Assembly (NCBI GenBank): GCA_020050835.1
Contig: JAGVKB010000114.1
Location: 1-40,524 of the forward strand
Direction of reading: 5' to 3'
DNA from: Candidatus Obscuribacterales bacterium
Lineage (GTDB): Bacteria > Cyanobacteriota > Vampirovibrionia > Obscuribacterales > Obscuribacteraceae
DNA: 40,524 nucleotides
Under the pieces are notes generated by a model. That model made no database searches and was not told where the DNA came from. It saw only the letters and a list, made by a program, of their open reading frames with translations. Below, in pieces: positions 6,617 through 40,524 of the stretch. The position numbers were made by a program, and so were the translations under genes. Each line of letters starts with the position of its first letter. Within the stretch, counting starts at the first letter, position 1.

Positions 6617-7852
6617 ATGGCAAGAGTTCTGATTATTGAAGACGACCGGCAGCTTTCCAATTTGGTTGTGGATTTCCTGAATGGCGAGGGGCACCAGATT
6701 GAACCAGCCTACAAAGGCACTGATGGACTAGAGCGATTGCGCACTGGTTCGTACGATCTAGTTATTCTTGACTGGGAGCTACCCGGTCTATCCGGCGTAG
6801 ATCTCTGCCAGCAGTATCGCGACTCCGGCGGACAGACACTTATCCTTATGCTCACAGGGAAGCGCGAGCTGGAGGACAAAGAGATTGGCCTAGATTCAGG
6901 TGCCGACGACTACCTGACCAAGCCGTTTCACTTGAAGGAACTTTCTGCTCGCATGCGAGCGCTTTTGCGCAGAAAGACTAAAGTAGCTGAATCCTCAGAT
7001 GGTTCGATTCAAACCGGTCAAATCGTTGCCGGCAAGTTCCGGCTCGATCAGTTCATCGCCCAGGGAGGAATGGCGTTAATCTATCGTGCCACTCATATTG
7101 GAATGAATAAAACAGTGGTCGTCAAAGTGCTTCAAGAGCATCTGATTAATAGCGCCAAGCAACGAACCAGATTCGAACGTGAATGTCTCACCATGGCCAA
7201 GATCAATCACATCAATGTCGCAACTGTTTTCGATGCCGGTGTAACGGATCACGGCAGGCCATACCTCGTGATGGAGTACGTAAAGGGAGTTTCGCTTGCC
7301 GACCGGTTGGATCGCGACGGAGCATTACCTTTGGAAGATGCGGTGAAGGTCCTCGATCAAATCTGCCGTGGACTGGAGGAAGTGCACGCGGCCGGGATAA
7401 TACATCGAGACTTGAAGCCAGACAATATCTTGCTTCAAGAAAACAAGGAGCGTCCAGACTGGGTAAAAATTGTCGATTTCGGCATTGCGCATTTGGTAGA
7501 TGCCGACCGCCGACTGACGGACGCGGACAAGGTTGTCGGGACCGCAGGATTTATGGCCCCGGAGCAGCTGCGTAGCGAGGAAGCTGACTGCCGAACCGAT
7601 GTTTATGCGCTTGGAGTCATGTTCTTCCAGATGATTACGAACCAACTGCCGTTTAAAGCAAAAAATACCGAAGCCATGCTTCTAAGACAGTTTCAGACCG
7701 AGCCCGATCTGCTGTCGGACTACCTGCCACAACTGGGAAAAGACTCCACTTTAGATTTGTTCAAACGAAAGGCTCTTGCGATCGACCCGCGAAATCGCTA
7801 TCAAACCGTGACTGAAATGCGGCTCGCCTTACAGTACGTGCTTCCCAGGTGA
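6617..7852 (+). CDS. Hybrid response-regulator receiver / Ser-Thr protein kinase
   Basis: 411 aa. Residues 1-118 are an OmpR-type receiver domain with acidic pocket E8-D9-D10, phospho-acceptor D52 (VILDWELPG), T80 and K102 (LTKPF). A short linker leads to a Hanks-type kinase from about 140: glycine loop IAQGGMALIY (first Gly is Ala148), Lys170, HRDLKPDN at 263-270, DFG at 287-289 and the APEQL segment after it. All catalytic residues are present, so an active kinase is expected. No transmembrane segment is seen, so it should be cytosolic. Inference: phosphorylation of D52 by a histidine kinase would control Ser/Thr phosphorylation, joining two-component and eukaryote-like signalling. A second copy of this architecture lies at 36947-38326. 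Confidence 0.93.
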   Translation: MARVLIIEDDRQLSNLVVDFLNGEGHQIEPAYKGTDGLERLRTGSYDLVILDWELPGLSGVDLCQQYRDSGGQTLILMLTGKRELEDKEIGLDSGADDYLTKPFHLKELSARMRALLRRKTKVAESSDGSIQTGQIVAGKFRLDQFIAQGGMALIYRATHIGMNKTVVVKVLQEHLINSAKQRTRFERECLTMAKINHINVATVFDAGVTDHGRPYLVMEYVKGVSLADRLDRDGALPLEDAVKVLDQICRGLEEVHAAGIIHRDLKPDNILLQENKERPDWVKIVDFGIAHLVDADRRLTDADKVVGTAGFMAPEQLRSEEADCRTDVYALGVMFFQMITNQLPFKAKNTEAMLLRQFQTEPDLLSDYLPQLGKDSTLDLFKRKALAIDPRNRYQTVTEMRLALQYVLPR

Positions 7853-8472: not shown

Positions 8473-8665
8473 CTAACAAAATCGTCGGATTTGCCTGCAC
8501 CTCCACCATCGCCGGCTCCCACAAGGCTGGAACTATTGCCAGACAATTCTGACTCAAAGCACATGACAGCTTCGAACAAGAATACGGATAGTACACACTC
8601 CGGCATCATTGCATTCAAGCGAAAACTCGTATAATGCTAGAAGCTTACTCAATAGGAGATACTTT

Positions 8666-15141: not shown

Positions 15142-15304
15142 CCGTGATGCCCCTGGCGGTAAAAGCAGAAAGTGCTCCAGTCCGCCAAACACTCCAGCAA
15201 TAGCTAGAATCGCTCCCCTTTTTCGATCAGCACTCGAGTAACGTTCTTCTGGAGCGAACCCCACCAATCTCCATTATGCCCCTACAAGGGAAAGTCAGCT
15301 ACAT

Positions 15305-22187: not shown

Positions 22188-24686
22188 CTACCAGACCTCG
22201 ATGATTACATTGAGCGGCTCAGTTCGCCAAATGTTTTGGCAATACTCTCGTATCGATCGATCTGAAGAGAACTTGCCCATTCTGGCTACATTGAGAATGG
22301 ACATGCGGCTCCATTCATCCTGATCGAGATACGCTTTGCTCACCTGCTCCTGGCAATCCATGTAAGATGAGAAGTCAGCAAAAAGTAGATAGTCGTCGCG
22401 ACTGAGCAAGGAATCAAGCAGCGGAGCGAAAAGCGCACCGTTGCCGGCAGAGAAGTAACCGGAAGAAATCTGATCGATCACTTTCTTTAACTCAGGATTG
22501 CTGGAATAGATATCATACGGACGATATCCCTTCGCCTTGCTCGCTTCGACCTGCTGAGCCGACAGCCCGAACAAGAAAAAGTTCTCGGCTCCGACCTCCT
22601 CGCGAATCTCAATGTTTGCGCCATCGAGAGTTCCAATCGTCAAGGCGCCGTTCAGCGAGAACTTCATGTTGCCTGTGCCGGACGCCTCCTTACCAGCTGT
22701 CGAAATCTGCTCCGACAGGTCAGCCGCAGGATAGACACGCTGCCCGAGTGTGACGTTAAAATCAGGCAAGAACACGACCTTCAACCGTCCGGCTATATCC
22801 GGGTCGTTGTTGACCACTTCGGCTACGGAGTTAATCAGTTTGATAATCAGTTTCGCCTGGAAGTAGGCAGGCGCAGCCTTGCCACCGAAGATAAATGTTC
22901 GAGGTGCAAACTCTAACTTCGGGTTCTCCTTAATCCGGTTATACAAGGCAATGATATGCAAAACGCTGAGATGTTGCCGCTTGTACTCATGTATTCGCTT
23001 AACCTGGACATCAAACATCGAATTGGGATCAACGTCAATCTTCAATCTGGTGGCAATGTAATCAGCCAACCGGCGCTTTGCCGAAAGCTTCATCTCTCGC
23101 CATTGCTTGCGAAACTGCGCATCATCGGCCAAAGGCTCCAATTTACGCAACTCTTCCAAATCATGAAGCCAACCATCACCGATCTGATCGTTTATCATCT
23201 CGCCCAATCTTGGATTGCTAAGCAACATGAATCGACGAGGAGTTACACCGTTAGTTACGTTCAAGAACTTATCCGGCCACAACTCATAGAAATCTCTCAA
23301 CACATCAGATTTGAGGAGCTCGGAGTGCAGCGCCGCCACACCATTGATCGCATGACTCCCCACGCAAGCCAGATGTGCCATTCGCACGTACCGTTCTCCG
23401 CTTTCGTCAATCAGGGACATCCGGCTTAAACGATCGTCGTCACCCGGATACTTCTGCTTGACTAGATCAAGAAAGCGCCGATTTATCTCGTAGATAATCT
23501 CGAGATGCCTCGGTAGTAAGCTACCAAACAGCTCAACCGGCCAGCGCTCGAGCGCCTCAGGAAGCAACGTATGATTAGTGTATGAGAATGTGTTCTGAGT
23601 GATGGTCCATGCGCGCTCCCAATCAATTACATATTCGTCGACCAAGATACGCATCATTTCAGCGATTGAGACAGATGGATGAGTGTCATTCAATTGAATG
23701 GCTATCTTTTGATCCAAACTATCTACATTGTCCCCTTCTTTAAGATGCATTCGGATCATGTCTTGCAGCGAACACGAGGAGAAGAAGAATTGCTGCTCTA
23801 AGCGCAATTCCTTTCCTTGTTTCGGCTGGTCATTCGGATAAAGAACTTTGGAGATGTTTTCGGAAATCATTTTTTCGTAGACGGCTCCAGAATAGTCGCC
23901 CATATTGAAAGCCTGGAAATTGAATGATTGGTGCGCTTCCGCTTTCCACAAACGTAATGTATTGGCGTTGTTAGTTTTATATCCGAGGATCGGGGTGTCG
24001 TAGGCGACACCGTTAACAACCTTACCGGGAATCCACTCCACTCTAAAGTGACCGCGAGCATCGACATACGAACGCGTAAATCCACCCAACTTAACCGGCA
24101 TTGTTATCTCAGGTCTGCGAATCTCCCACGGATTGCCGAAGTGCAACCACTTATCGGTAATCTCGACTTGCCAGCCGTCTCTAATCTCCTGATCGAAGAT
24201 ACCGAACTCGTAGCGAATTCCATAACCAATCGCCGGTATACCAAGCGTCGCCAAAGAATCCATGTAACACGCTGCAAGCCGGCCCAAGCCGCCATTTCCG
24301 AGTCCAGGCTCCTCCTCTTGTTCGATCAATTGGTCTAAATCAAGATCGCCGCCCAGTTCACGGACCGCCTCCTTGATTGGCTCTTGAATATCAAGATTAA
24401 TGATGTTGTTGGCGAGATGCGGGCCGGTTAAGAACTCGGCAGAAAGATAACAGACCAGCTTTACGTCCTTCCTCATGCCGGTGTGTCGAGTCGTTATCCA
24501 GCGATGAACCAGGCGATCGCGAACCGTGTAGGCCAGCGCCATATACCAATCGCACTTGGTGGCAATCTGCGGAAACTTTCCCTGCATATAGAAAAGATTG
24601 TCAGTAATCGCTCTCTTCAATGTCTCGACAGAAAGACCGGTACGGTCGTCCTCAACCCTGACCTGCTCTGCAACGACTTTCTCCAC
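22188..24686 (-). CDS. glgP: Glycogen phosphorylase
   Basis: 832 aa from the GTG at 24686 with AAGGAG 8 bases upstream; the length matches the family (about 800-850). It removes glucose from alpha-1,4 chains with phosphate, giving glucose-1-phosphate, in the cytosol. Diagnostic stretches are GLGNGGLGRLAACYMDS and GYGIRYEFGIFDQ early, and the pyridoxal-phosphate site EASGTGNMKF with the Schiff-base Lys at about 675, followed by GTLDGANIEI. No truncation or missing motif is seen. The gene follows phosphoglucomutase by 47 bases on the same strand, and is divergent from glgX beyond that gene, so the three probably share one metabolic purpose. Its 3' end converges with the caspase-like gene (72-bp gap). 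Confidence 0.97.
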   Translation of the reverse strand: MEKVVAEQVRVEDDRTGLSVETLKRAITDNLFYMQGKFPQIATKCDWYMALAYTVRDRLVHRWITTRHTGMRKDVKLVCYLSAEFLTGPHLANNIINLDIQEPIKEAVRELGGDLDLDQLIEQEEEPGLGNGGLGRLAACYMDSLATLGIPAIGYGIRYEFGIFDQEIRDGWQVEITDKWLHFGNPWEIRRPEITMPVKLGGFTRSYVDARGHFRVEWIPGKVVNGVAYDTPILGYKTNNANTLRLWKAEAHQSFNFQAFNMGDYSGAVYEKMISENISKVLYPNDQPKQGKELRLEQQFFFSSCSLQDMIRMHLKEGDNVDSLDQKIAIQLNDTHPSVSIAEMMRILVDEYVIDWERAWTITQNTFSYTNHTLLPEALERWPVELFGSLLPRHLEIIYEINRRFLDLVKQKYPGDDDRLSRMSLIDESGERYVRMAHLACVGSHAINGVAALHSELLKSDVLRDFYELWPDKFLNVTNGVTPRRFMLLSNPRLGEMINDQIGDGWLHDLEELRKLEPLADDAQFRKQWREMKLSAKRRLADYIATRLKIDVDPNSMFDVQVKRIHEYKRQHLSVLHIIALYNRIKENPKLEFAPRTFIFGGKAAPAYFQAKLIIKLINSVAEVVNNDPDIAGRLKVVFLPDFNVTLGQRVYPAADLSEQISTAGKEASGTGNMKFSLNGALTIGTLDGANIEIREEVGAENFFLFGLSAQQVEASKAKGYRPYDIYSSNPELKKVIDQISSGYFSAGNGALFAPLLDSLLSRDDYLLFADFSSYMDCQEQVSKAYLDQDEWSRMSILNVARMGKFSSDRSIREYCQNIWRTEPLNVIIEVW

Positions 24687-24733
24687 GGCATGTTCTCCTT
24701 GATGAAGGTGAGTAGATTCAGACGCCGAATCGA

Positions 24734-26537
<1,804 letters not shown>

Positions 26538-28700
26538 ATGCGAGTCTTGCCTGGTCAGTCATACCCGTTGGGCGCAACCTGGGACGGGCTTGGCGTTAAC
26601 TTTGCGATTTTTTCGGAGCGCGCCACGAAAGTCGAGCTCTGCCTCTTTGATTCAGCACTGCCTGGCCGGGAAAGTCATAAAATCACCCTGCCGGAGTACA
26701 CCAACCAGATCTGGCATGGTTACCTTCGCGATGTCCGTCCCGGTCAGATCTACGGTTATCGCGTGCATGGACCGTACGACCCGGACAAAGGGCTGAGATT
26801 CAATCACAATAAAATTTTGGTCGACCCATACGCAAAGGCGATTGTTAGAACTGTCAGCTGGAATGACAGCTTGTTCGGATACAAGATTGGTTCAGCGCAG
26901 CAGGACCTGTCCTTTGATACTCGGGACTCGGCCGAGCATGCCTTGCTCGGGGCCGTGATCGATCCGGCCTTCACCTGGGGCAACGATAGCCGGCCGGCCA
27001 CTCCGTGGCACAAGACGGTAATCTATGAGACCCACGTCAAGGGGATGACTGTTTTGAACAAAGAGGTTCCACCCGAAATGCGTGGGACTTATGCCGGGAT
27101 GTCCTCCGAGCCGATGATCAAACATTTGAAATCGCTCGGCGTTACAGCAGTTGAGCTCATGCCGATTCACCATCGTGTGGATAATCGCTATCTGGTGGAT
27201 AACGGACTGGTGAATTACTGGGGCTACAACACCATCGGATATTTCGCTCCGGACATTCGCTATTCCCAGTTCAAAGGCCCGACTGAGCACGTGCACGAAT
27301 TCAAAATGATGGTTCGAGCATTCCACGCTGCCGGCATCGAGGTGATCTTGGACGTAGTCTACAACCACACAGCCGAAGGCAATGAACTTGGTCCGACGCT
27401 TTCATTCAGAGGAATCGACAATACGGCCTATTATCGAACTGACGCTAAGAATCCGCGCTGCTATGTTGATTACACCGGCTGCGGCAACACCCTGAACATG
27501 ACCCATCCACGAGTGCTACAGCTATTGATGGATAGCCTGCGTTATTGGGTGCAAGAGATGCACGTGGATGGATTCCGATTCGATCTGGCCAGCGCGCTGG
27601 CCAGAGAGCTCTACGACGTCGATAAGCTTTCCGCCTTCTTCGACGTCATTCAGCAAGATCCGGTCGTTTCACAGGTGAAGTTAATCGCTGAACCTTGGGA
27701 TTTAGGCGAAGGCGGCTACCAGGTAGGAAACTTTCCGGTCCTCTGGACGGAATGGAACGGCAAATTCAGAGATACAAGCCGCCGGTTCTGGCGGGGAGAT
27801 TCCGGTCTGGCCGGAGAGATGGCGACCCGTTGCACCGGCAGCTCGGATCTGTATGAACATTCCGGACGAAGCCCACACGCCAGTATCAACTTTGTAACTT
27901 GCCATGACGGATTTACGCTCTCAGATCTCGTCAGTTATCAGACGAAACACAATGAGGCAAATCTGGAGAACAACAAAGATGGGGAGAGCCACAACCATAG
28001 TTTCAACTGCGGAGTGGAAGGACCTACCGAAGACTCGAAGGTTCTTGCTCTGCGCTTGAAGCAGAGGAAAAACTTGATGGCGACTCTGCTTCTGTCAATT
28101 GGAGTGCCAATGATTAGCGGAGGCGACGAGCTGGGTCGTACTCAGCGCGGCAACAACAACGCATACTGCCAGGATAACAACGTCAGCTGGCATAAATGGG
28201 ATTTGAGCGACAACGATCGGGAATTCCTCTCTTTCGTCCAACGCCTGTGCGCAATCCGCCAGAACCATGTCGCGCTGCAGCGAAGAACGTTTTTGGATGG
28301 CAGAATCATAGACAAAGTCTCGGGCAGCAAAGATGTAATCTGGCTCAACCCAGAAGGCCGCGAGCTCGATCAAAAGTCATGGAAAGATCCCGACTTGAAG
28401 TCGTTCGGAATCTTGACCGATGGCGATGTTATCAAAGAAATCGATGAAGAAGGTCACCAGGTTACCGGTCTTACGATGCTTACCCTCTGCAATGCCTCCA
28501 ACGAGGCGATTATTTTCACTCTACCTGACAGGCACCCGCTAGCCTCATCCGAGTTCGATCGCTCCGAGGACAACCGCAAGTACTGGAAGCTCTTGCTTGA
28601 AACCACTGATTCGATTGGTCTCGTTTGCCTTGACTTCGGTTACGAAATCCTTCTCAAGGAACAGAGCGTAGCGGTCTTTGAGCTAGCCGACAAAGAGTAA
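26538..28700 (+). CDS. glgX: Glycogen debranching enzyme (isoamylase-type GlgX)
   Basis: 720 aa; GGAGGAA lies 8 bases before the ATG. It hydrolyses alpha-1,6 branches of glycogen after phosphorylase has shortened the outer chains. An N-terminal CBM48-like domain (residues 8-110, with YPLGATWDGLGVNFAIFSE) precedes a GH13 barrel: DVVYNHTAEGN, FRFDLA with the nucleophile Asp349, AEPWDLG with the acid Glu385, and TCHDGFT with Asp457. The LRQRKNLMATLLLSIGVPMISGGDE-like end is typical of GlgX. All catalytic residues are present. It is divergent from pgm-glgP and its stop abuts the acetate kinase stop. Confidence 0.95.
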   Translation: MRVLPGQSYPLGATWDGLGVNFAIFSERATKVELCLFDSALPGRESHKITLPEYTNQIWHGYLRDVRPGQIYGYRVHGPYDPDKGLRFNHNKILVDPYAKAIVRTVSWNDSLFGYKIGSAQQDLSFDTRDSAEHALLGAVIDPAFTWGNDSRPATPWHKTVIYETHVKGMTVLNKEVPPEMRGTYAGMSSEPMIKHLKSLGVTAVELMPIHHRVDNRYLVDNGLVNYWGYNTIGYFAPDIRYSQFKGPTEHVHEFKMMVRAFHAAGIEVILDVVYNHTAEGNELGPTLSFRGIDNTAYYRTDAKNPRCYVDYTGCGNTLNMTHPRVLQLLMDSLRYWVQEMHVDGFRFDLASALARELYDVDKLSAFFDVIQQDPVVSQVKLIAEPWDLGEGGYQVGNFPVLWTEWNGKFRDTSRRFWRGDSGLAGEMATRCTGSSDLYEHSGRSPHASINFVTCHDGFTLSDLVSYQTKHNEANLENNKDGESHNHSFNCGVEGPTEDSKVLALRLKQRKNLMATLLLSIGVPMISGGDELGRTQRGNNNAYCQDNNVSWHKWDLSDNDREFLSFVQRLCAIRQNHVALQRRTFLDGRIIDKVSGSKDVIWLNPEGRELDQKSWKDPDLKSFGILTDGDVIKEIDEEGHQVTGLTMLTLCNASNEAIIFTLPDRHPLASSEFDRSEDNRKYWKLLLETTDSIGLVCLDFGYEILLKEQSVAVFELADKE

Positions 28701-29897
28701 TTACAGAAACCGCAGGCATTCTTTGGCAATAGCCAGCTCTTCACGAGCTTTGACAACGAGCGTGGCAACCTTGGCATTGTCAGCCGAGATGATCCGATCA
28801 GCGCGACCATTGGTGTTTCTTTCTGTATCCACTTGCATCCCTAAGAACTCAAACGGCTTGCAGGCTTCTGTTCTTACCCAGTCGGAATTTTCTCCGACAC
28901 CGCCCGTGAAGGCGATCGCGTCGATACCACCCAATACTCCAAGCGACGCTCCGATGTGCTTATGCAGGCTGGCGATATACATTGCCAATGCCAGTTTCGC
29001 CCGTTCGTTGTTCCGCTCCGCGGCAGCTTGAATCTCACGCATGTCACCGGACAGCCCCGAGACACCCTTCAAACCGGACTCTTCATTCAAGATGCGCAGC
29101 ATCTCCTTAGCAGTACATCTTTCATCAATCAACATCTGCAACACAATTCCGGTATCGATAGACCCACATCGAGAGCTCATGATCAGCCCTTCCAGCGGAG
29201 TATATCCCATCGTTGTCATCTGGCAGGTACCGCCGCTGATGGCAGCCAGGGATGCGCCGCCTCCGAGATGGCACGTCACCAAACGCAGCTCAGTCAGCGG
29301 TTTACCTAGCATCTCTGCGACCCTGGTTGCGCAATAGTGATGACTGATGCCATGAAAACCGTAGCGCCTGACTCCCAGATCTCGATACCAGTCATATGGC
29401 AAGGCATAGACTCGATGATGCTCCGGCACGCTCTGATGAAAGGCGGTATCAAAGACAGCGACTTGTGGCAGGGCTTCAAACAGCTCGCCGGCGATTCGAA
29501 TGCCACTAATATTAGAAAGCTCATGCTCCGGCGCGAGGCTCACAAACGACTGCAAATCAATCATTACCTTTTCGTCGACCAGAACAGGCGAAGAATACTT
29601 AGCACCGCCATGCACAACCCTGTGCCCAACGATATCTACGCTTCGACCGGAGCAGCCATTTTCAGCCAATTCAAGCAGCTTCTTTACGATCGCCTTGAAA
29701 GAATTCTCCTCCGCCAGGCATGACTGCCGGCTGCCATCAGCATCGGTGATTGTGATGGTAGAAGTTCGGTGATCAGCCACCGATACTTGTCCGGACCAAA
29801 CAGGCTCGACCAATGAGTTGCCACCCAAATGATCGACTATGTCGAACAATCCGGCTTTCACGCTCGTTGAGCCGGCATTCAGAACTAGTATGGCCAT
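28701..29897 (-). CDS. ackA: Acetate kinase
   Basis: 398 aa from the ATG at 29897 (the frame can be extended one TTG codon upstream). It transfers phosphate between acetyl phosphate and ADP, giving ATP and acetate. Motifs: LVLNAGSTSVK at the start, FDTAFHQSVPEHHRVYALPYDW, the phosphate-binding CHLGGGASLAAI, and FTGGVGENS near the C-terminus; all are intact and the length is typical. No phosphotransacetylase gene is visible nearby. Its stop codon directly abuts the glgX stop (TAA then TTA in the forward strand), with no room for a terminator between the convergent genes. The ribosome site is weak. Confidence 0.96.
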   Translation of the reverse strand: MAILVLNAGSTSVKAGLFDIVDHLGGNSLVEPVWSGQVSVADHRTSTITITDADGSRQSCLAEENSFKAIVKKLLELAENGCSGRSVDIVGHRVVHGGAKYSSPVLVDEKVMIDLQSFVSLAPEHELSNISGIRIAGELFEALPQVAVFDTAFHQSVPEHHRVYALPYDWYRDLGVRRYGFHGISHHYCATRVAEMLGKPLTELRLVTCHLGGGASLAAISGGTCQMTTMGYTPLEGLIMSSRCGSIDTGIVLQMLIDERCTAKEMLRILNEESGLKGVSGLSGDMREIQAAAERNNERAKLALAMYIASLHKHIGASLGVLGGIDAIAFTGGVGENSDWVRTEACKPFEFLGMQVDTERNTNGRADRIISADNAKVATLVVKAREELAIAKECLRFL

Positions 29898-30133
29898 CAA
29901 CAGTTGCGAATCTCAAACATATCCTAACCGTACTCCCTGCTGTTCTGCTTATCTTCCACCATTTTGTCGCGGGAAATTTAGAAAATTTTCGCAAAATCAA
30001 AAATACTCTGTTGAACGTCCAGCCTTGACAACGCGGATTGAAACAGTTCGGGGAAGTTTATTGATAGCGACGATTGGGGACCCAAGATTTCTTTCCCAGT
30101 TCAATAATTTGTGACATCGGAGAAGGCAACCGA

Positions 30134-31487: not shown

Positions 31488-32606
31488 TCACTTCTTATCA
31501 GTACCGTAATACTGCACGTAAGAGCCAGGAGAAGAAGTGCTTGGAGAAGATTGCGCTGGTTGATTCGCTGCTTGGTCGCCAGCGGCAGGAGTGGGAAGGC
31601 GAGAATTGACTTTGGTTTCTGGTCGCGAGCCAGCACCGGTGGCAGGCAAAGTCGAGCCGCCCGGTGTGGGCACCGGCGAATTGCCCGGAATAGAGGGCAC
31701 CGGCTTTGGCAGCCCATATTGCGTCTCGAGCGGCTGCAAAGTCGGCGTAAGCTTAATTCTCGAGAGCATATCTTTCATATTGGAAGTAGAAGTAAACTCA
31801 CCGCCAATCGAGTTTACTTCCGATGTTCCAGAAGAAACATTGGCATTAGGCGAAGGCTGTGTCAGACCTGGAAGCTTACTGCTACCGAGTGCGGTCCCTT
31901 TCGTCTGATGGGCAGAGAAATTCGAGGTTTGCAAAACCGGGCCAAGTGAACTATCAGTCGGCTCCGCAGGCCTGTTACTCACCAACCATATTCCGACCGC
32001 TATTGCTCCCACCACTGCTGCGGCAAGGGAAGCGATGGTCACCATTCCCGAACGAACTCGCTTTTGTCCGACTGGACAATCAGAGGTCAGGAATCGACCA
32101 TCTTTTCGCTTGTAGAGAACAAAACTCTGTTTGTTCTCCTTTTGCAAGACAAGCTGCTCAACTTCTACCTGGTCCATATTCGAGCAATCATAAACATTGA
32201 GACTGCAAGCGGAGCAAAAACGACAACGACTAGTTCCAATCAAGTCATTCCAGTCCGAACTACAAGGAGCGGCAAGCTTATACTGTGAAATCTGCTTGAC
32301 CGGCTCCGTACTGTCCGGCGCCGACCGAAAGTTTACTTCATCCTTGCCCTTGGACTCACTTTCCGTTATCAGACGCGATACAACGTCTCGGCAGGCATCT
32401 AGATCAAGAATTGTCCTTTCGACAACCACGTTTAGCTTTTTCATCACTCTTCCCACACCGCCTGCAGACTGCTCAGGAGCCTTTCGAGCAGTCTGCCCGC
32501 CGGTCGCCGCAGAAGCTGCAGCTTGCGCTGAGTCAGGAGCAGTTGATGCTTCCGAAACCAATTTTGGGCTCGTCTCCTCCGGACCGTTGCCCTGACTGTC
32601 AGACAT
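31488..32606 (-). CDS. Single-pass protein with cysteine-rich zinc-ribbon-like domain
   Basis: 372 aa from the ATG at 32606 with AGGAGA 6 bases upstream; the frame is open further. Residues 1-60 are an Ala/Ser/Pro-rich disordered stretch. Residues about 107-182 form a Cys-rich domain: C115, C128, C131 (RFCSAC), C134 and C141, then the RKDGRFLTSDCPVG end with C177. This pattern (W-x-L, R-x-C-x-x-C-x-x-x-V-Y-D, DG-x-x-x-x-DCPVG) recurs in uncharacterised bacterial proteins, probably as a metal-binding domain. A membrane span follows at about 189-209, then a Ser/Pro/Thr-rich tail of 160 residues outside. No N-terminal signal peptide, so the Cys domain is cytosolic. Confidence 0.75.
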   Translation of the reverse strand: MSDSQGNGPEETSPKLVSEASTAPDSAQAAASAATGGQTARKAPEQSAGGVGRVMKKLNVVVERTILDLDACRDVVSRLITESESKGKDEVNFRSAPDSTEPVKQISQYKLAAPCSSDWNDLIGTSRCRFCSACSLNVYDCSNMDQVEVEQLVLQKENKQSFVLYKRKDGRFLTSDCPVGQKRVRSGMVTIASLAAAVVGAIAVGIWLVSNRPAEPTDSSLGPVLQTSNFSAHQTKGTALGSSKLPGLTQPSPNANVSSGTSEVNSIGGEFTSTSNMKDMLSRIKLTPTLQPLETQYGLPKPVPSIPGNSPVPTPGGSTLPATGAGSRPETKVNSRLPTPAAGDQAANQPAQSSPSTSSPGSYVQYYGTDKK

Positions 32607-32738
32607 AACCGATCTCCTGATTTGCAATAACAAGTGCTTTGGCGATTGGAGATTTCGCGCGCCAGCGAGCTCCAGCTTCTGTTATTCCCGTTGAATAAGA
32701 AATATCAATCAAGACCGTTGGCGCCGGATAGACATAGC

Positions 32739-32767
32739 TAGCTCCTGGTACGAAGTACAAGGAGCTA
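32739..32767. repeat. 29-bp hairpin between divergent genes
   Basis: TAGCTCCTGGTAC pairs with GTACAAGGAGCTA with one mismatch around a GAA loop. It lies in the 297-bp gap between the zinc-ribbon gene (minus) and the first TadE-like gene (plus), 133 bases from one start and 137 from the other. It could be an operator or a transcript leader structure; it has no T-tract. Confidence 0.5.
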
Positions 32768-32903
32768 TATTAGCGATTATGGGCTGTCTGGCAAGGCTGA
32801 TAAATACCGAAGCAAAACGGAGCAAAGCAAGCTCAGTATCCAGTCACAGATCGGACACACAAGCAGACTAGATTAGGCTTGCAGGAAGGCTGGAGGTTAG
32901 TTT

Positions 32904-33347
32904 ATGAAGAAGAGGCGTTCGCAACAAGGGTCGCAAATTGCCGAGTTCGGACCAGCGCTCGGCATAGTCTTTACTATCTTTCTAGCAATTCTGGTTGTTT
33001 TCCCATTTTTCGTGGCATTTGCCGCCGGGTTTACCTTGAACTTCATGGAAGTGCGAGAGGCAGCTCTGGCAGCACATGTTAATGGTCAAAGCGGACAACT
33101 ATTGAACGTCGAAGAGGTAAGAACCCAACTCAGCTCGCTCGATCAAGAGCTGCAGGCTTCGCCAATCGTAAAAGCGCTTAACCTAACCATTCTTCGACCG
33201 ACTGATCCGACTGTCGCCGCCGGTTACGACGGCACCATGCGTGAAATAGTAGTCCCGTGCGAAATTGTGTGGAACAGCGGACTGCCATTCTTCGGAGTGA
33301 AGCGACTTCATTTTGCAGGTAAGCGTTCGGTTGAGCATATCGAATGA
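32904..33347 (+). CDS. TadE-like pseudopilin-type protein
   Basis: 147 aa; GGAGG lies about 7 bases before the ATG. The N-terminus is the TadE signature: a basic lead (MKKRRSQQ), GSQIAEFGPAL with the Glu typical of TadE-type processing sites, and a hydrophobic helix (residues 17-42). The rest is a small extracytoplasmic domain ending in GKRSVEHIE. Such proteins are minor pilin-like parts of tight-adherence (Tad) systems. A paralogue of nearly the same size lies at 36193-36633 with the same N-terminal motif and a matching end (GERSVENVI). Likely in one operon with the next two genes (15-bp gap to the next). Confidence 0.85.
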   Translation: MKKRRSQQGSQIAEFGPALGIVFTIFLAILVVFPFFVAFAAGFTLNFMEVREAALAAHVNGQSGQLLNVEEVRTQLSSLDQELQASPIVKALNLTILRPTDPTVAAGYDGTMREIVVPCEIVWNSGLPFFGVKRLHFAGKRSVEHIE

Positions 33348-33362
33348 GAGGGAATAGCATAA

Positions 33363-33878
33363 ATGATTATTTCAAGGGCTGGCGCGAGGTGTACTGAATT
33401 GGAGCGAAGAAGAAGACGACGACGAGGACAAGGGGGAGCCAGCCTGGCCGAAGCGGCAGCCAGCATAGGCATGTTCCTGCTATTAGGATTTGCGCTTTAC
33501 GATCTTTGCGTCTTCGTAATCGGCGTCATGATTCAAGACGGCGCAACCAAGGCTGTTGCCAGAGCCGTATCCAGCGCAACCGGAGCACAATCAGTTTCAC
33601 AAGTTCGCGAAGGGCAGGTGAGCTTGAGCGAGACGGCCAGTAATGTAGTGCCCGGAGTGGTGGCTCGTCTGGAACAGCAGTACAATCGCAACCCACTTTA
33701 TACATTCAAAGTGAGTTCGACCGATTACAACCAGTCGATGCCTGGTTTCGTAATCATCAAGACAGCGATGACTTCTCATATCGTGTTTCCGCGCCTGCCG
33801 TTCTTAAAGCTCGAGGACCCCACAACGGCGGCGCAAGCTTGCGAGCCAATCACAATTGCTCCATTCGCCAAGAATTGA
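33363..33878 (+). CDS. TadE/TadF-like minor pseudopilin
   Basis: 171 aa. A strongly basic lead (about nine Arg in residues 15-24) precedes GGASLAEAAASIGMFLLLGFALYDLCVFVIGVM, a prepilin-like helix with Glu near its start. The remaining 120 residues form an exported domain with two late cysteine-free strands and one Cys at about 162. The basic lead is unusually long. Its position, 15 bases after a TadE-like gene and 108 bases before a TadG-like gene, supports a Tad-type role. The ribosome site is GAGAGGG about 10 bases before the ATG. Confidence 0.8.
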   Translation: MIISRAGARCTELERRRRRRRGQGGASLAEAAASIGMFLLLGFALYDLCVFVIGVMIQDGATKAVARAVSSATGAQSVSQVREGQVSLSETASNVVPGVVARLEQQYNRNPLYTFKVSSTDYNQSMPGFVIIKTAMTSHIVFPRLPFLKLEDPTTAAQACEPITIAPFAKN

Positions 33879-33986
33879 CAGAGAGATCTAACTACGAATT
33901 AGGTACTTTAATTTAAATCGTCGTACTGAGGCAATTTTGGACCAATTTTTCCACTTCACTTACTACAAACCAGAGGAATGAATTCG

Positions 33987-36092
33987 ATGAGTCATATTAT
34001 GCCAATGCGGAAAGTCAAGTCGCGAACGACTACTGGTGGAATCACCGCTCTGGCAGCTGCTCTGCTGTTCGTCCTTTTCGGTTTTGCTCTGCTCGTGCTC
34101 TATGCCACCAGCGGATTCGGAGTTCACATGGAGCTGCAGAATGCTGTCGATGCGGCGACGCTGTCGCTCGCCAATAAAGCGGCAGCAGCATCGGTATCGT
34201 TGGGAGAAGTTGATACCAAACTCGCCGGTGATCCCTTGTTTCAAAAAAATGGTCGAGTTCAAGCCAATTGCAGCTATTTCCTCAATGGGCTTGGTAGCGG
34301 TCCGAACAAGGACAAGATAAGCCTAGGCAATTTAAACGATGTAATCGGGTCAGTACTTTTGCTTTCGGCCGATATCGAAGACTGCCACTTTATCCAATCA
34401 TATATCTACATATTGTCGACTGCCGGTCGCACCAATGCCGGCTCACCTCCGGCACCGATTGCGGATCAAATCTACATACCGGAGCAAGGTTTCAATGGTA
34501 CAGACAACCCGAATGTAGAGCTCTTCTCAGATCCATTCCCACAGGACGAAAGCCTGCATCGCTCAGTCCAGGCTGTCGTGAAACTGCTCAAGGAGAAGCT
34601 CGGCTTGGACTCTTCCCAAGAGAACAAAGAGCTGTTTAGAAAGGTGATAGCGCAGAATCCAGCGAGGTTGTTTGGGCTCTTGCCTGCTCATACGCAAGCG
34701 AAACTTGATATGACCAGCCTCAAGATCGAGCCGGTCTATTATAAGGTCGCTCAACCAGGTCAGACCTCAAATATCAAAATCATGAACGACAGTGTGCCCA
34801 ATATGTGCCTGATGCGCGGCAGTTTCTTTCCTTCCCAACCACCAGGAGTAACTGCACTTTTACCGGCGCCCCAGCCGCTGGAAGTGAGTACCGCCTGGTT
34901 ATTAAATCCTTTGACGATCGATGTCCCAGCCAATACGAACTTATTAAAGTATGGCATCTATGCATTGCCAGCTAACCCAACCGGCAACTTGACGCTGGCC
35001 CATCTGATACCAGTGCGGGAAGCCAATCAGTACTTGTTAAACAAACTGCCGGAGCCATACAAGACAGATGCGAGCAGAGGAGTTCTGCTGCCAAATGCAG
35101 TAAAGGTCACAGCGAACTTCATCGACCCCAATACCAAGCAAACTCTTACATTCTACGCCGCAGCCGAGCTACCATTTCCGGCCACGAAGAAAGTCGCAAA
35201 AATACCAAACGGTCACGTCAAGTTCTCCAACAGCATTCTGTCTTACACCGACGTCAGAGAAACCTATGACCTGTCTCCAAATCTTCCGCAATTTGGAATG
35301 ACCGAATCAAAGCGATTCAGAGTAATCCGTCGCGGGATTCAAAAATGGGATCGTCTACCATCGCAGACTCGTCCGACTGTCGCCCAGGACGGTCAGTGGC
35401 CAAACGAAATCGTACCCGGAGAGCAGGTAATGCAAGGTGCTAACCAGGACTTTCTCGTCAGTATGTACAATCAACCTGACTTCGCCTCGTTTGTCCTGCC
35501 ATCTAGCATCGATCCAACCGTTCATACTGATGGAACATTTGGTGACCTAGTAACACAAGTTGCGTTGTACAACCCGGTAAGAGACTATCGCCGCATCGAA
35601 TTGGCAAGGTATGTGCATCAATTTGCGCCCAATGCATCGATTGAAGAGATCGAAGGCGTCTTGAGCACAACGCCGGCTCCCGTGGCAACGCACCAGGTCC
35701 CGACCGTTACCTGCCTGCGCGAAGACCCCAACCGAAGTGGTCACGTCGCGGCGCTCAATGCGGACCTGCCCGGCATGCCTCCGGCACCGGGCGAGCCGGA
35801 GCAGTTGAAGAATCGAATTAGGGTCCACTGCCCGTTGTGGGCCATCCCACCAGCAAGAGAAGGACTAGAGCCACCATTTCAAATCAAGACCGGCTATCTC
35901 GGCCGATACAATCCAGACTTCATTCGCAGACTAGCCGAGGTTGGCGCAAAGATTCGCGGATATGACGTCAACAAGCCAAGCACTTTTCCGGAATTGTATG
36001 ATGAATTGTCGATCGACTACTTCCCGGGAATGAACAACGGACAGTTGTTGCAATATACGTTCGGAACGGAAGGATTCCAGAATATACCGTAA
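33987..36092 (+). CDS. Large TadG-like protein
   Basis: 701 aa from the ATG at 33987, since AGAGGA lies 9 bases upstream and directly abuts the earlier ATG at 33978. The N-terminus (basic lead, TTGGITALAAALLFVLFGFALLVLYATSGFGV, then HMELQNAVDAATLSLANKAA) matches TadG-type proteins: a membrane helix followed by the conserved QNAVDAAALA-like stretch. The remaining 600 residues are a large exported domain rich in Pro, Asn and Thr, with no von Willebrand A motif recognised. It follows two TadE-like genes and is the largest exported part of the cluster, possibly a surface or pilus-tip component. Confidence 0.82.
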   Translation: MSHIMPMRKVKSRTTTGGITALAAALLFVLFGFALLVLYATSGFGVHMELQNAVDAATLSLANKAAAASVSLGEVDTKLAGDPLFQKNGRVQANCSYFLNGLGSGPNKDKISLGNLNDVIGSVLLLSADIEDCHFIQSYIYILSTAGRTNAGSPPAPIADQIYIPEQGFNGTDNPNVELFSDPFPQDESLHRSVQAVVKLLKEKLGLDSSQENKELFRKVIAQNPARLFGLLPAHTQAKLDMTSLKIEPVYYKVAQPGQTSNIKIMNDSVPNMCLMRGSFFPSQPPGVTALLPAPQPLEVSTAWLLNPLTIDVPANTNLLKYGIYALPANPTGNLTLAHLIPVREANQYLLNKLPEPYKTDASRGVLLPNAVKVTANFIDPNTKQTLTFYAAAELPFPATKKVAKIPNGHVKFSNSILSYTDVRETYDLSPNLPQFGMTESKRFRVIRRGIQKWDRLPSQTRPTVAQDGQWPNEIVPGEQVMQGANQDFLVSMYNQPDFASFVLPSSIDPTVHTDGTFGDLVTQVALYNPVRDYRRIELARYVHQFAPNASIEEIEGVLSTTPAPVATHQVPTVTCLREDPNRSGHVAALNADLPGMPPAPGEPEQLKNRIRVHCPLWAIPPAREGLEPPFQIKTGYLGRYNPDFIRRLAEVGAKIRGYDVNKPSTFPELYDELSIDYFPGMNNGQLLQYTFGTEGFQNIP

Positions 36093-36192: not shown

Positions 36193-36633
36193 TCAGATAA
36201 CATTCTCCACCGACCGCTCGCCATCAAATTGGAAGGTCTGTTTTCCGACACCGGGCAAGCCAGGGCTGAACTTCATTTTATTCCGGATATGCAAGAAGCG
36301 CACGGTAGTCGTGCCCTTATCGGGCACGTTGATCTCATGAGAGACGGTAAATGGCAACAATAGTCCGATCGGCGATCGCTTCCACCGGTCCTCAAGAGCA
36401 GACAGATTGTCCTCAACCTCCTCCCAATTGGCGATGGTGCAATCCTGCCCCTTCACCGTGGACCGAATAGCTGCTTCCTGCAACTCCGCATAGTGAAGGC
36501 TGGCACAAGTCAGATAGATCACTGCCACTCTTACAAGCAAGATCAAAGGAAACAGAATAACCACGAACAGAATGAACAGCGCTGGACCAAATTCAGCTAT
36601 CTGAGAACCTCTCAGCGCGCGCCGGGCTTTCAT
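36193..36633 (-). CDS. Second TadE-like protein (paralogue, opposite strand)
   Basis: 146 aa from the ATG at 36633, chosen because GAGGA lies 6 bases upstream; the frame is open to 36666. It opens with the same RGSQIAEFGPAL motif as the 32904 gene and a hydrophobic helix (FILFVVILFPLILLVRVAVIYL). Both have EEV...LS.L...SPI in the middle and end in G-x-RSVE, so they are paralogues of 146-147 aa. This copy has two extra Cys (in TCASLH and KGQDCT). It is convergent with the TadG-like gene and divergent from the receiver-kinase gene. Confidence 0.85.
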   Translation of the reverse strand: MKARRALRGSQIAEFGPALFILFVVILFPLILLVRVAVIYLTCASLHYAELQEAAIRSTVKGQDCTIANWEEVEDNLSALEDRWKRSPIGLLLPFTVSHEINVPDKGTTTVRFLHIRNKMKFSPGLPGVGKQTFQFDGERSVENVI

Positions 36634-36784
36634 GTATCGTCCTCGAGCCATACTTTCCAGATGCACCAGTCTAGTCGATTCCCGACTGCAATCTTTGAGC
36701 AGCTAAGCTTTTCGTTCGCCGTTCACTGCTTCGTGACATACCCAATGGCGGTTTGTGGTTACCAGTCCGATTCTGGGCATAAAA

Positions 36785-36946: not shown

Positions 36947-38326
36947 ATGGCTAAAGTGCTTGTGGTTGACGACGATCCATTGTTGTCCGGAACGCTCGAA
37001 GACTGGCTATTGGGCGAAAAGCACAATGTCGAAGTAGCCGACACCGGATTCAAAGGATGGGAGAAGCTCCAGAAGAATGAATACGACTTTGTAATTCTCG
37101 ACTGGGACTTGCCTGATTTAAACGGTGTAGACATCTTGAAGATGTACCGCGGTGCGGGCAATACAACTCCGGTCCTTCTCCTGACCGGTAGATCTTCGCT
37201 CGATGATAAAGAGCAAGGCTTGGACTCCGGCGCCGATGACTATCTGACCAAGCCGTTTCATGTGAAGGAGCTTGCCGCCCGCATGCGCGCTGCCATGAGA
37301 AAAGGCGAAGCGAGGCAACCCAAACCTAAAGCGCTGGGAGAAGGCAACGAAGAGATGCTGAAGAGCGCCGATCTCGATGGCACAAGCCTGGCAGCTCACT
37401 ATGAATTCATCGCCACTGTCGGTTCGGGCGGAGTAGGGGTTGTTTTCAAGGCCAGACATCCTCGATTAGACAAACTGGTGGCAATCAAGATGCTACAACG
37501 CGCAGAGGCTAAGGACGAAACTGTCTCACGGTTCGAAAGAGAGGCACAGATCATCAGTCGGCTCGAACACCCTGGCATAGCGACTGTTCACGATTTCGGT
37601 GTAACCGAACGCCGGCAGCCCTATATGGTCATGGAGTTCATCGAAGGCAGAGGTCTGGAAGCAGTGCTTGCCGAACGAGATTTTTTGCCGCTACCAGAAG
37701 CACTAGACATCGCCTTGCAAATCTGTGATGCCCTGGCATATGCCCACGAGCACGGGATTCTCCACCGCGACATCAAGCCAAGCAACGTCATGCTTAAGGA
37801 CATACCTGGCAAGGCACCAATCATCAAGATTCTGGATTTTGGCTGCGCCAAGAGACAGGAAGAAGGCATCGAGAAAGCTCCGGCGTTGACGCAAACCGGA
37901 CAGATTATCGGCAGCCCTCCTTATATGAGCCCTGAGCAGATCAAGGGAAAGACGCTGAGCGAACGGTCGGACCTGTATTCCTTCGGCTGTTTGCTGTACG
38001 AAACGCTAGTCGGATACCCGCCACACAGTGGAGAGACTGCCGTTGAAATCATTTTCAAGCATCTCGACGAACCGGTCATCCCCATTCGTGCCGTCCGGCC
38101 CGAATTGAATCTGCCGCAGGAGCTCGATCACTTGCTCTCCAATGCGCTGGCACTAGACCCTTCAATGCGTTATGGCTCTATGCGAGAGATTCAAAAGGAC
38201 TTAGAAAGGATTCGCGCCGGGTTGACTGCACCCAAGGAAGCAACTAAGCAGGCTGCCGACGACAAACACAGCGACACGCTCAAGAATCGCCTCAAAGGAA
38301 TTTTCAATCGCTTTCATCAGAGCTAG
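36947..38326 (+). CDS. Second hybrid receiver / Ser-Thr protein kinase
   Basis: 459 aa, with the same layout as the 6617 gene. The OmpR-type receiver (1-118) has D8-D9-D10, phospho-acceptor D52 (ILDWDLPDL), T80 and K102 (LTKPFH). A 35-residue linker leads to the kinase (about 152-425): glycine loop VGSGGVGVVF, Lys181, HRDIKPSN at 273-280, DFG at 297-299, SPEQI. All catalytic residues are present, so activity is expected. The C-terminal 35 residues are basic and helical (KNRLKGIFNRFHQS). No membrane span. It is convergent with an OmpR-type response regulator (stops 47 bases apart) that has a very similar receiver. The ribosome site is weak. Confidence 0.93.
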   Translation: MAKVLVVDDDPLLSGTLEDWLLGEKHNVEVADTGFKGWEKLQKNEYDFVILDWDLPDLNGVDILKMYRGAGNTTPVLLLTGRSSLDDKEQGLDSGADDYLTKPFHVKELAARMRAAMRKGEARQPKPKALGEGNEEMLKSADLDGTSLAAHYEFIATVGSGGVGVVFKARHPRLDKLVAIKMLQRAEAKDETVSRFEREAQIISRLEHPGIATVHDFGVTERRQPYMVMEFIEGRGLEAVLAERDFLPLPEALDIALQICDALAYAHEHGILHRDIKPSNVMLKDIPGKAPIIKILDFGCAKRQEEGIEKAPALTQTGQIIGSPPYMSPEQIKGKTLSERSDLYSFGCLLYETLVGYPPHSGETAVEIIFKHLDEPVIPIRAVRPELNLPQELDHLLSNALALDPSMRYGSMREIQKDLERIRAGLTAPKEATKQAADDKHSDTLKNRLKGIFNRFHQS

Positions 38327-38373
38327 GCTTACGGTCCGTCCGACCGACAAGTTGAGATTGTTTGAAAGGCAGC

Positions 38374-39045
38374 TCAGGACTTGAACATATAACCGACGCC
38401 GTGGACTGTTTCAATAATTGAAGATTGCCCATCCGTATCCAACTTCTTTCGCAGCCGTTCGACACATTTGCGAATCGCATTAGGTAACGCGTCCGACTCA
38501 TTCGACCAGACGCGATCGAGCAGCGCCTCTGCACTAAACACTTGGTTGGGATGACGCATCAAGAAATACAAGAGCGCGAACTCGCGAGGAATCAGTTTGA
38601 CTTCAACACCATCCTTCTGCACCCGATGAGCGCCACCATCAATCTCAATACCGCGAGCCACAAGCGCTTCGGGTTTAAAAACCTGTGGTCTCCTCAAGAG
38701 CGCTCTTACACGAGCCCTTAACTCCCTTAGTTCGAACGGCTTAGTCAGATAGTCATCGGCTCCTGAATCCAGACCTTCTTCTTTATTAGAAAGGGAGCCC
38801 TTTCCGGTGAGCATAAGAACCGGACTAGTCCCGCCGCTCTTGCGATAGTCTTTGCAAAGCTCCAAACCGCTCTTGCCCGGCATCTGCCAATCCAAGATCA
38901 ACACATCATACTTATAAGACCCCAGCATAGCCCAACCATCTTCACCGTTAGCAGCCCAATCTACCTCGTACTGGTCTGCCTTGAGCGCATCAGTAACAAC
39001 CTCGGCCAGGATTACATCATCGTCAACGACTAAGACTTTCGGCAT
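38374..39045 (-). CDS. OmpR/PhoB-family response regulator
   Basis: 223 aa. The receiver (1-118) has the acidic pocket D8-D10, the phospho-acceptor D52 (ILDWQMPG), T80 and K102 (LTKPF). The C-terminal winged-helix DNA-binding domain (about 125-223) has PREFALLYFLM, VWSNESDALPNAIRKCVERLRKKLD and the ETVHGVGYMF end. It should be a transcription factor activated by a histidine kinase that is not in the window. The upstream TPR gene ends 25 bases before, so they probably form one operon; AGGAG lies 11 bases before the ATG. Confidence 0.95.
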   Translation of the reverse strand: MPKVLVVDDDVILAEVVTDALKADQYEVDWAANGEDGWAMLGSYKYDVLILDWQMPGKSGLELCKDYRKSGGTSPVLMLTGKGSLSNKEEGLDSGADDYLTKPFELRELRARVRALLRRPQVFKPEALVARGIEIDGGAHRVQKDGVEVKLIPREFALLYFLMRHPNQVFSAEALLDRVWSNESDALPNAIRKCVERLRKKLDTDGQSSIIETVHGVGYMFKS

Positions 39046-39070: not shown

Positions 39071-40524
39071 TCAGTGTTTACGTGCCAATTCTTCCAAACG
39101 TTTCGCCTCCTCTAATCTACCCGCCTTTCTCAGGTATTCAGCATAGCTCTGAAAGGTTCGCTGAGCATAACCCTGGTTCGGATACTTAGTGGCCATTGCT
39201 AGCGCCATTTTGTAAAAGTGTTGTGCCTCGCCGTTCTTCGCTTGACTATCCAGAGCTAAGGCCAGCGAAGCGGCAGCATTTCCGCGCAATGCATCCTCCT
39301 TGCCGGGGAATGTCTCGCTCAGAGCTAGCATTCGCCGGAACGATTGCTCCGCCTTGGCTAGTTGACCGGATTGCAATTGAGCGACGCCGATTATGCCGAC
39401 GTAGCCAACCGTCTCCTCGTCAACTTTTCTGGGAGCCATGGCTAAACCACTGACAATCAAAGCTTCGAGATCCGTATTCTCGCTCGAGTTAAACAACTGC
39501 ATGCCGAGCCAGAGCGTGTATTCCTGAAGTTTTGCGGGGGGAAACTCCGGACGTCCAGCGGACATTCTCATGAACTTCCGGTAGCTGTCTCGTGCTAGCG
39601 CATACCTCTTCTCAGCATAGTAAAGCGGAATCAATTTCATCAATATGTCCAAAGTTGTATTGGCAGTTGCAGCACCCTCATGTTGCGAAATCTTGAGCGC
39701 TCGCTCCAAGACAGTTCTGGCCTCTGCCGTCCGCTTGTCTCGCACATAGAGTTGATGTAGAGCCAACAAAGGCTCAAGCAACATGGCATTCTCTGCTCCG
39801 AATCCGGCATCGGCAACGGAGATTGCCCGCTGATTAAGGCTTTCGGCTTCTGCGAATTTATGCTGCTCTTGTTTGATCTTGGCTAAGAAGGCAAAGTCAC
39901 TCGACAAATATGGATTATCAGCTCCAATGTAGTTTTGCCTGATTCTAATTGCTTGCGTCGCAGCCTCTTCAGCATCCACTAACCGTTGATCTTGGTCGAG
40001 AGCCTTGCCTAACTTCTCTAAAGGGAAGGAGAGATATCGATGAGTCGGTCCGTACCGCTTGTCGAGAATGGCCACCTCCTGCTCGAGACACTTGACGGCA
40101 TTTCCATACTGACATTGGAACATGTACAGGTCTGACAGTCGTTGCAACACTACTGCTACACGTTCACTGCCCGGTCCCAAATACTGCTTGCGATGCTTCA
40201 GACAGAGCTGATACGCCTGCTCGGCCTGCCGATAATCTTTCAGCGCTGTCAAAGTAATACCAAGATCTTCTAGCGTATCTGCAATACGTTGGTCGCCAGC
40301 GGCAAAGCCTTTCGATTCCTGGAGCGCCAGTCTATAACATCGCTCTGCTTGGCGGTAATCGCCGTGATTAGAGGCAGCCTGCGCGCTAATAGTCAGACGG
40401 TTCCAGGGATCCGAATTGAAAACCGCATAGCCTGGACCGCTGCAAACATACAATATGCAACAAAGACAGATGAATCCGGCTACAAGCAACCTCGAAAGCT
40501 TTCCAGCCTGCTCGTGGACAATTC
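39071..40524 (-). CDS. Exported TPR-rich protein, 5' end cut by window edge
   Basis: The minus-strand frame runs from the stop at 39071 to the window edge; the earliest in-frame start seen is the TTG at 40489 (472 aa), but it lacks basic residues before the hydrophobic stretch, so the true start is probably beyond the edge (the frame continues IVHEQAGKLSRLLVAGF). A signal sequence or anchor (LVAGFICLCCILYVC) is followed by many TPR units, for example YRQAERCYRLALQ, YRQAEQAYQLCLKH, FAEAESLNQRAIS and EARTVLERALKI, in the kinesin-light-chain style with about 42-residue spacing. It is upstream of the response regulator in a likely operon and may help sense or transmit a signal to it. Confidence 0.85.
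   Translation of the reverse strand, partial: IVHEQAGKLSRLLVAGFICLCCILYVCSGPGYAVFNSDPWNRLTISAQAASNHGDYRQAERCYRLALQESKGFAAGDQRIADTLEDLGITLTALKDYRQAEQAYQLCLKHRKQYLGPGSERVAVVLQRLSDLYMFQCQYGNAVKCLEQEVAILDKRYGPTHRYLSFPLEKLGKALDQDQRLVDAEEAATQAIRIRQNYIGADNPYLSSDFAFLAKIKQEQHKFAEAESLNQRAISVADAGFGAENAMLLEPLLALHQLYVRDKRTAEARTVLERALKISQHEGAATANTTLDILMKLIPLYYAEKRYALARDSYRKFMRMSAGRPEFPPAKLQEYTLWLGMQLFNSSENTDLEALIVSGLAMAPRKVDEETVGYVGIIGVAQLQSGQLAKAEQSFRRMLALSETFPGKEDALRGNAAASLALALDSQAKNGEAQHFYKMALAMATKYPNQGYAQRTFQSYAEYLRKAGRLEEAKRLEELARKH

Follow-up and report, generated by a model that had tools for sequence, protein, structure and literature searches.

The gene at 36947-38326 encodes a protein that we read, with a probability of about 0.68, as a response regulator with a Hanks-type Ser/Thr kinase as its output; it would be controlled by a histidine kinase and would act at the membrane on a putative substrate discussed below. 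The reading builds on what we observed: the architecture of the protein and its intact catalytic residues, the OmpR-type origin of its receiver, the linkage of its family to histidine kinases, and linkage to and co-divergence with a family of membrane proteins, NB. The window, the whole stretch of DNA analysed, is 40,524 nucleotides long and is contig C151 of the 7.0-Mb draft genome of a Candidatus Obscuribacterales bacterium. It holds two fusions of a receiver (REC) and a Ser/Thr kinase (STK), referred to here as hybrids and by their first positions:

36947..38326, + strand: REC-Ser/Thr kinase hybrid of group I, 459 aa (Pfam Response_reg and Pkinase)
36956..37285, + strand: receiver domain of hybrid 36947 (Pfam), with D52 (37100-37102), T80 and K102
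37316..37387, + strand: linker of hybrid 36947, consensus PKxLGxxNxxxLxxxxLxGTxLAxRYEF, conserved among group-I hybrids (alignment)
37400..38185, + strand: Hanks-type kinase domain of hybrid 36947 (Pfam, 181 bits)
38237..38323, + strand: C-terminal tail of hybrid 36947, a predicted helix, amphipathic and basic (NRLKGIFNRFH)
6617..7852, + strand: second REC-STK hybrid of the window, 411 aa (Pfam Response_reg and Pkinase)

Both Pfam and AlphaFold2 place a receiver and then a kinase in one chain of hybrid 36947, with Response_reg at residues 4-113 (91.6 bits) and Pkinase at residues 152-413 (181 bits). In an alignment of 118 receivers, its receiver has the acidic pair, D52, T80 and K102, and is thus of the phosphorylatable type. 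The kinase carries the VAIK lysine K181, the alphaC glutamate E199, D275 of HRD, N280, D297 of DFG and E330. All of these kinase residues are invariant across 43 aligned hybrids, as are D52, D98, K102, E108 and R112 of the receiver. The P-loop, VAIK Lys, alphaC Glu, HRD, DFG and APE-type Glu by which Hanks kinases are recognized are all present, so that, judged by sequence, hybrid 36947 has a complete Hanks-type Ser/Thr kinase core and is predicted to be catalytic. Pfam found no match to Trans_reg_C (PF00486) in the protein, and thus no winged helix; hybrid 36947 is therefore not filed as an OmpR regulator.

The AlphaFold2 model, built on 43 hybrids, has a mean pLDDT of 89.8 and a pTM of 0.73 and is less confident in part of the activation loop and in the C-terminal tail. 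The linker is modelled confidently (residues 121-150, block pLDDT 75-91). The tail forms a helix at residues 431-458 (block pLDDT 62-71) with a hydrophobic moment of 0.69 and a charge of +3, and is a possible membrane anchor. Such a basic amphipathic tail is shared by roughly a dozen hybrids out of 49, among them those that lie tail-to-tail with histidine kinases in G017, which is another genus of the same family, and at contig C50.

Hybrid 36947 has many relatives. Of the roughly 75 Ser/Thr kinases and roughly 140 receivers of the genome, about 23 are joined as hybrids. In the kinase tree, 36947 falls in a clade of 27 members that contains only hybrids (group I, support 100/100). Seventeen of these are from this genome, seven from G017 and one each from G015, G028 and G034, so the clade is amplified in two genera. 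A search of 53 genomes of the order gave full-length hybrid matches in about a dozen of them. In a sample of 292 genomes of the phylum, where six candidates per genome were scored, no full-length REC-STK matched at E <= 1e-75 beyond this genome, and no other genome of the order was among the matches. A peptide-pattern search of genome contigs, with loci from many phyla, returned mostly kinase-only relatives (one REC-STK among 99 kinase ORFs), and a plasmid search gave no convincing REC-STK match. In the open literature that we searched, neither REC-Hanks kinases nor NB were the subject of a study. As far as searched, fusions of a receiver with a Hanks kinase are rare and, in that literature, unstudied.

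Several other genes of the window may be mentioned. Just downstream of hybrid 6617 lies a gene for a protein with TPR and ankyrin repeats (8609-10402), relatives of which (TPR family f1) are found close to several other hybrids. The window has a third Ser/Thr kinase gene (13288-15267, 659 aa), which lacks a receiver, as well as a gene for a caspase-like protein (20487-22115; Peptidase_C14, 90 bits) and a glycogen-type gene run encoding a phosphorylase, a phosphoglucomutase and a CBM48/alpha-amylase protein (22188-28700).

The third receiver of the window belongs to an OmpR regulator that faces hybrid 36947:

38374..39045, - strand: OmpR-family response regulator, 223 aa (Pfam Response_reg and Trans_reg_C)
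39071..40489, - strand: TPR protein of family f0 (Pfam TPR_12), co-oriented with the OmpR gene and 25 bp upstream of it

The initial annotation gave the three receivers a common framework of D52, T80, K102 and GLDSGADDYLTKPF, and all of these are indeed present in 6617, 36947 and 38374. It also called the receivers of 36947 and 38374 near-identical, which does not hold: they share 52% identity, against 56% for 36947/6617 and 55% for 38374/6617. As many as 26% of all OmpR/hybrid receiver pairs in the genome are at least as similar as 36947/38374, and 38374 ranks 13th among the 50 genome OmpRs by receiver identity to 36947, 12 of the 50 being closer. GLDSGADDYLTKPF occurs exactly in 14 of the 118 receivers examined, and GADDYLTKPF in 38 of the 118. 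On these comparisons the framework exceeds chance, yet it is ordinary conservation of receivers and of the OmpR subfamily, with no special bond among the three. In the receiver tree, the nearest kin of 38374 is the OmpR regulator C95:32299 (97/97) and that of 36947 is other hybrids (96/89), while the 6617 receiver is sister to that of a plain OmpR regulator, C141:10373 (68% identity, 99/95).

Where, then, do the hybrid receivers come from? A position far from OmpR family receivers, by which the initial annotation would have been refuted, was not seen: all 23 hybrid receivers of the genome fall within the OmpR receiver clade (96/82). They also keep the OmpR dimer-face positions, with E108, R112 and D98 in 23/23, K88 in 20/23 and R118 in 22/23; at these positions hybrids show OmpR-like frequencies and non-OmpR receivers differ. 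This is the face, alpha4-beta5-alpha5, through which phosphorylated OmpR/PhoB receivers dimerise (PMC2586830). The earlier picture, in which a kinase took the place of the winged helix of an OmpR regulator, is thus supported for the receiver, by the tree and by the alpha4-beta5-alpha5 residues. A single clade of hybrid receivers was not rejected in an AU test (p = 0.35), and we therefore do not claim multiple, independent fusions from the receivers alone. In bootstraps of the kinase tree, the label changed between hybrid and non-hybrid four to seven times, with at least two changes forced by the starred branches. Hybrids 36947 and 6617 lie in different clades of the kinase tree and in different receiver subclades, and on both trees they are best described as separate modules of the same class. 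The sister kinases 6617/C43 and C12/C76 have receivers that are not sisters in the receiver tree; exchange of receivers among hybrids is a reasonable inference from this, though not a proven one with a receiver tree of only 117 columns. At another locus (L187, C76:32381-34895), a 359-aa receiver-HATPase protein adjoins a REC-STK hybrid and the two receivers are sisters (99/94), which by sequence is a local receiver duplication.

The initial annotation further proposed that one histidine kinase phosphorylates both hybrid 36947 and the convergent OmpR regulator, splitting its output into gene control and Ser/Thr phosphorylation. The arrangement is suggestive, as the two genes are convergent neighbours, tail-to-tail with a 47-bp gap. 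Moreover, an OmpR, a histidine kinase and a hybrid form one same-strand run in a related genome (G015:C619), an OmpR gene lies upstream of a same-strand hybrid at C1 and at G034:C475, and C18 repeats the combination of hybrid, TPR gene, OmpR and TadE/G-like genes seen in the window. The receivers themselves do not bear the proposal out. They belong to different subclades, each with closer kin elsewhere, and the contig has no histidine kinase. At the histidine-kinase specificity positions, which we mapped from RR468 and OmpR, the two read LLTDW/FHVK and ILVDA/FELR; this similarity is average, 38374 ranking 23rd of 50 OmpRs against 36947, and 45% of the OmpRs of the genome score as high. Co-located hybrid-OmpR pairs at other loci have no matched specificity residues either, and even the same-strand pair of G015 scores below the median, so specificity residues and co-located pairs elsewhere gave no signal of a shared kinase. 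An OmpR gene stands within 1 kb of 2/23 hybrids, a frequency that does not significantly exceed chance (p = 0.11), and we dropped such adjacency as a general rule. No shared terminator was found in the 47-bp gap (fold z = -1.07). A kinase shared by 36947 and 38374 is thus possible but unsupported, and we consider it improbable. Conserved synteny around the hybrids does exist, mainly with histidine kinases, TPR proteins, NB and TadE/G-like genes and less with OmpR; relatives of the f0 TPR protein, for example, adjoin histidine kinases and hybrids elsewhere (neighbourhood table). Most likely, OmpR 38374 and its TPR neighbour are another branch of this locus, with wiring of its own.

Histidine kinases are frequent neighbours of the hybrids. 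Of the hybrids, 11/23 have a HATPase_c domain no more than 3 kb away, as do 23/50 OmpRs, against 4/50 other Ser/Thr kinases; for hybrids against other STKs this gives a Fisher p of 2e-4, which like our other association p-values is optimistic and descriptive only because the loci are partly duplicated as blocks. Eight of the neighbouring kinases were scanned and have HisKA and HATPase_c, some with CHASE3 or PAS. A tail-to-tail layout of histidine kinase and hybrid recurs in two genera: the gap is 7 bp at C56 and 60 bp at C50, and at G017:C87 and G017:C167 the genes overlap by 6 and 4 bp. Thus, with a linkage like that of OmpRs and a recurrent layout, the hybrids behave genomically as response regulators. 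For 36947 itself, no HATPase_c match was found on the 40.5-kb contig and hence no local histidine kinase; the contig ends 35 bp past the TPR gene, so the orphan call is provisional. This lack of a local kinase would also suit a receiver that serves merely for dimerisation or docking, with the kinase constitutive or otherwise controlled and the linkage a product of chance and duplication of regulatory loci, as would the growth of the family by duplication and the varying presence and position of histidine kinases between paralogs. Such a receiver would not be expected to keep D52 and K102 in 43/43 hybrids, to equal real response regulators in its linkage, or to stand in the same tail-to-tail layout in two genera, and we judge this explanation quite improbable.

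Comparison of neighbours across hybrid loci revealed NB, a family with a member in the window next to genes that resemble tadE and tadG:

31488..32633, - strand: NB, an undescribed single-pass membrane protein, with a Cys4 core of C124, C140, C143 and C186 (alignments)
32904..33347, + strand: TadE-like small membrane protein (family f2), with the N-terminal G....E + hydrophobic motif and the order NB/f2/f2/f5 in relatives
33363..33878, + strand: TadE-like small membrane protein (f2), from the N-terminal motif, synteny and weak matches of the family to PF07811
33978..36092, + strand: TadG-like protein (family f5), 704 aa, from synteny and a weak PF13400 match below cut-off (E = 0.01)
36193..36666, - strand: TadE-like small membrane protein (f2), from the N-terminal motif; a relative adjoins a hybrid and NB at C32

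NB proteins consist of a core with four conserved cysteines, one predicted transmembrane helix and a low-complexity tail. They had no Pfam, NCBIfam or PDB match, and a model of NB found nothing in the PDB at E <= 0.001. Basic residues before the helix suggest an N-in topology. Ahead of the Cys core, nearly all copies have a [KR]T-x-[LIM]D site (T74) that is close to invariant, whether or not a hybrid is in the vicinity; it is a candidate phosphosite, nothing more. In this genome, NB lies within 5 kb of 13/17 group-I hybrids versus 0/6 other hybrids, and 14 of the 20 strong NB copies of the genome are that close to a group-I hybrid. The gene order is histidine kinase-NB-hybrid at C92 and NB-hybrid at C56 and G034:C643; in the window NB is non-adjacent, about 4.3 kb from hybrid 36947. 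Divergence of NB and of the hybrid kinase correlates over 15 loci (Mantel r = 0.40, p = 3.5e-4, again descriptive), and the numbers of group-I hybrids and NB copies rise together, from 1 hybrid with 1-4 NB in three genomes to 7/11 in G017 and 17/20 here.

NB is also older and wider than the hybrids, being present in 32/53 genomes of the order, mostly in one or two copies (20 in this genome, 11 in G017, 4 in G034 and usually 0-2 elsewhere, with 4 in G013). It thus cannot act solely through hybrids. Some of its Ser/Thr-kinase neighbours are non-hybrids, and at L178 (C50) and L187 (C76) it adjoins same-strand OmpR genes with no hybrid between, as if OmpR and REC-STK swapped places beside NB. Relatives that carry few NB copies usually have NB facing a set of two TadE-like genes and a TadG-like one (f2-f2-f5), as at 31488-36092. 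To judge from this gene order, NB facing f2-f2-f5 is an old conserved locus of the family, with NB ancestrally linked to TadE/TadG-like genes. The "-like" is deliberate, as the names rest on the N-terminal motif, synteny and weak matches: PF07811 matches 4/20 f2 members, weakly, and PF13400 8/16 f5 members (best 7.7e-4), while f4 relatives at other loci pass PF13400. No TadA/CpaF ATPase or TadB/C platform gene was found among the window ORFs scanned. That NB is the recurrent neighbour, that most hybrids lack an OmpR neighbour and that no shared phosphosite was identified make it quite unlikely that the Ser/Thr targets of the hybrid kinase are instead in the OmpR regulator or in the hybrid's own receiver, even though the two genes adjoin and there are known cases of response regulators phosphorylated by Ser/Thr kinases, some of them of the OmpR family (review, PMC12471899).

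Taken together, these results suggest how a histidine-kinase-controlled hybrid might work. D52 of hybrid 36947 would receive its phosphoryl group from a membrane histidine kinase whose gene lies elsewhere in the genome, with acetyl phosphate as an alternative phosphodonor. Two hybrid molecules would then pair through the OmpR-type alpha4-beta5-alpha5 face, and the paired kinase domains could activate each other on the activation loop. The substrates that the activated kinase phosphorylates would be at the membrane, and among candidates for a substrate or partner the NB family, which sits in a module with TadE/TadG-like proteins, is the best. We regard NB as a possible rather than a probable substrate, and it is doubtful that the hybrid controls a Tad-like export. 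The window also contains an acetate kinase gene, a possible link to the supply of acetyl phosphate for orphan receivers:

28701..29900: acetate kinase, 412 bits

How does such a protein compare with known systems? Yeast links two-component signals to kinases in trans, through Ssk1 and its MAPKKKs. The hybrid shares with OmpR/PhoB regulators a receiver nested among theirs, the phosphorylation pocket and the dimer-face residues, but its output is a Ser/Thr kinase in place of a winged helix. With PknB-like Hanks kinases it has the complete catalytic core in common, but it is soluble and carries an N-terminal receiver in place of the transmembrane sensor part. The best PDB match, 1mru (E = 1.4e-54), covers the kinase part only, and no solved PDB chain among the matches listed covers both receiver and kinase domains. 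A receiver also puts Ser/Thr phosphorylation under histidine-kinase control in PA3346 of Pseudomonas aeruginosa, where it is joined to a PP2C-type phosphatase (PMC12189002), and in the cyanobacterial RsbU class (PMC9953108), but there the output is a phosphatase and not a Hanks kinase. Cyanobacterial HstK-type proteins (PMC1183210) likewise unite both signalling worlds in one polypeptide; their Ser/Thr kinase is joined to a histidine kinase, that of the hybrid to a receiver. The one REC-STK from the search across phyla, on a Planctomycetota contig (L024), also has a receiver followed by a Hanks kinase, but it is longer (581-residue open frame) and lies outside this expansion.

Most of the closest kin of hybrid 36947 lie near a histidine kinase or NB, which suggests that the hybrids pass signals on to the phosphorylation of proteins at the membrane. 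Somewhat short of even odds, we would extend this to a lineage-specific module, in which histidine-kinase-controlled REC-Ser/Thr kinases may act on NB proteins tied to TadE/TadG-like surface-protein loci and in which OmpR-type receivers and kinase outputs may have been reassorted among the copies, 17 of group I here and 7 in another genus. The hybrids bear on how two-component signals enter eukaryotic-type phosphorylation without transcription, and about 23 of them in one bacterium are natural replicates for how a receiver switches a Ser/Thr kinase. NB offers a concrete substrate candidate and would tie the hybrid system to the cell surface.
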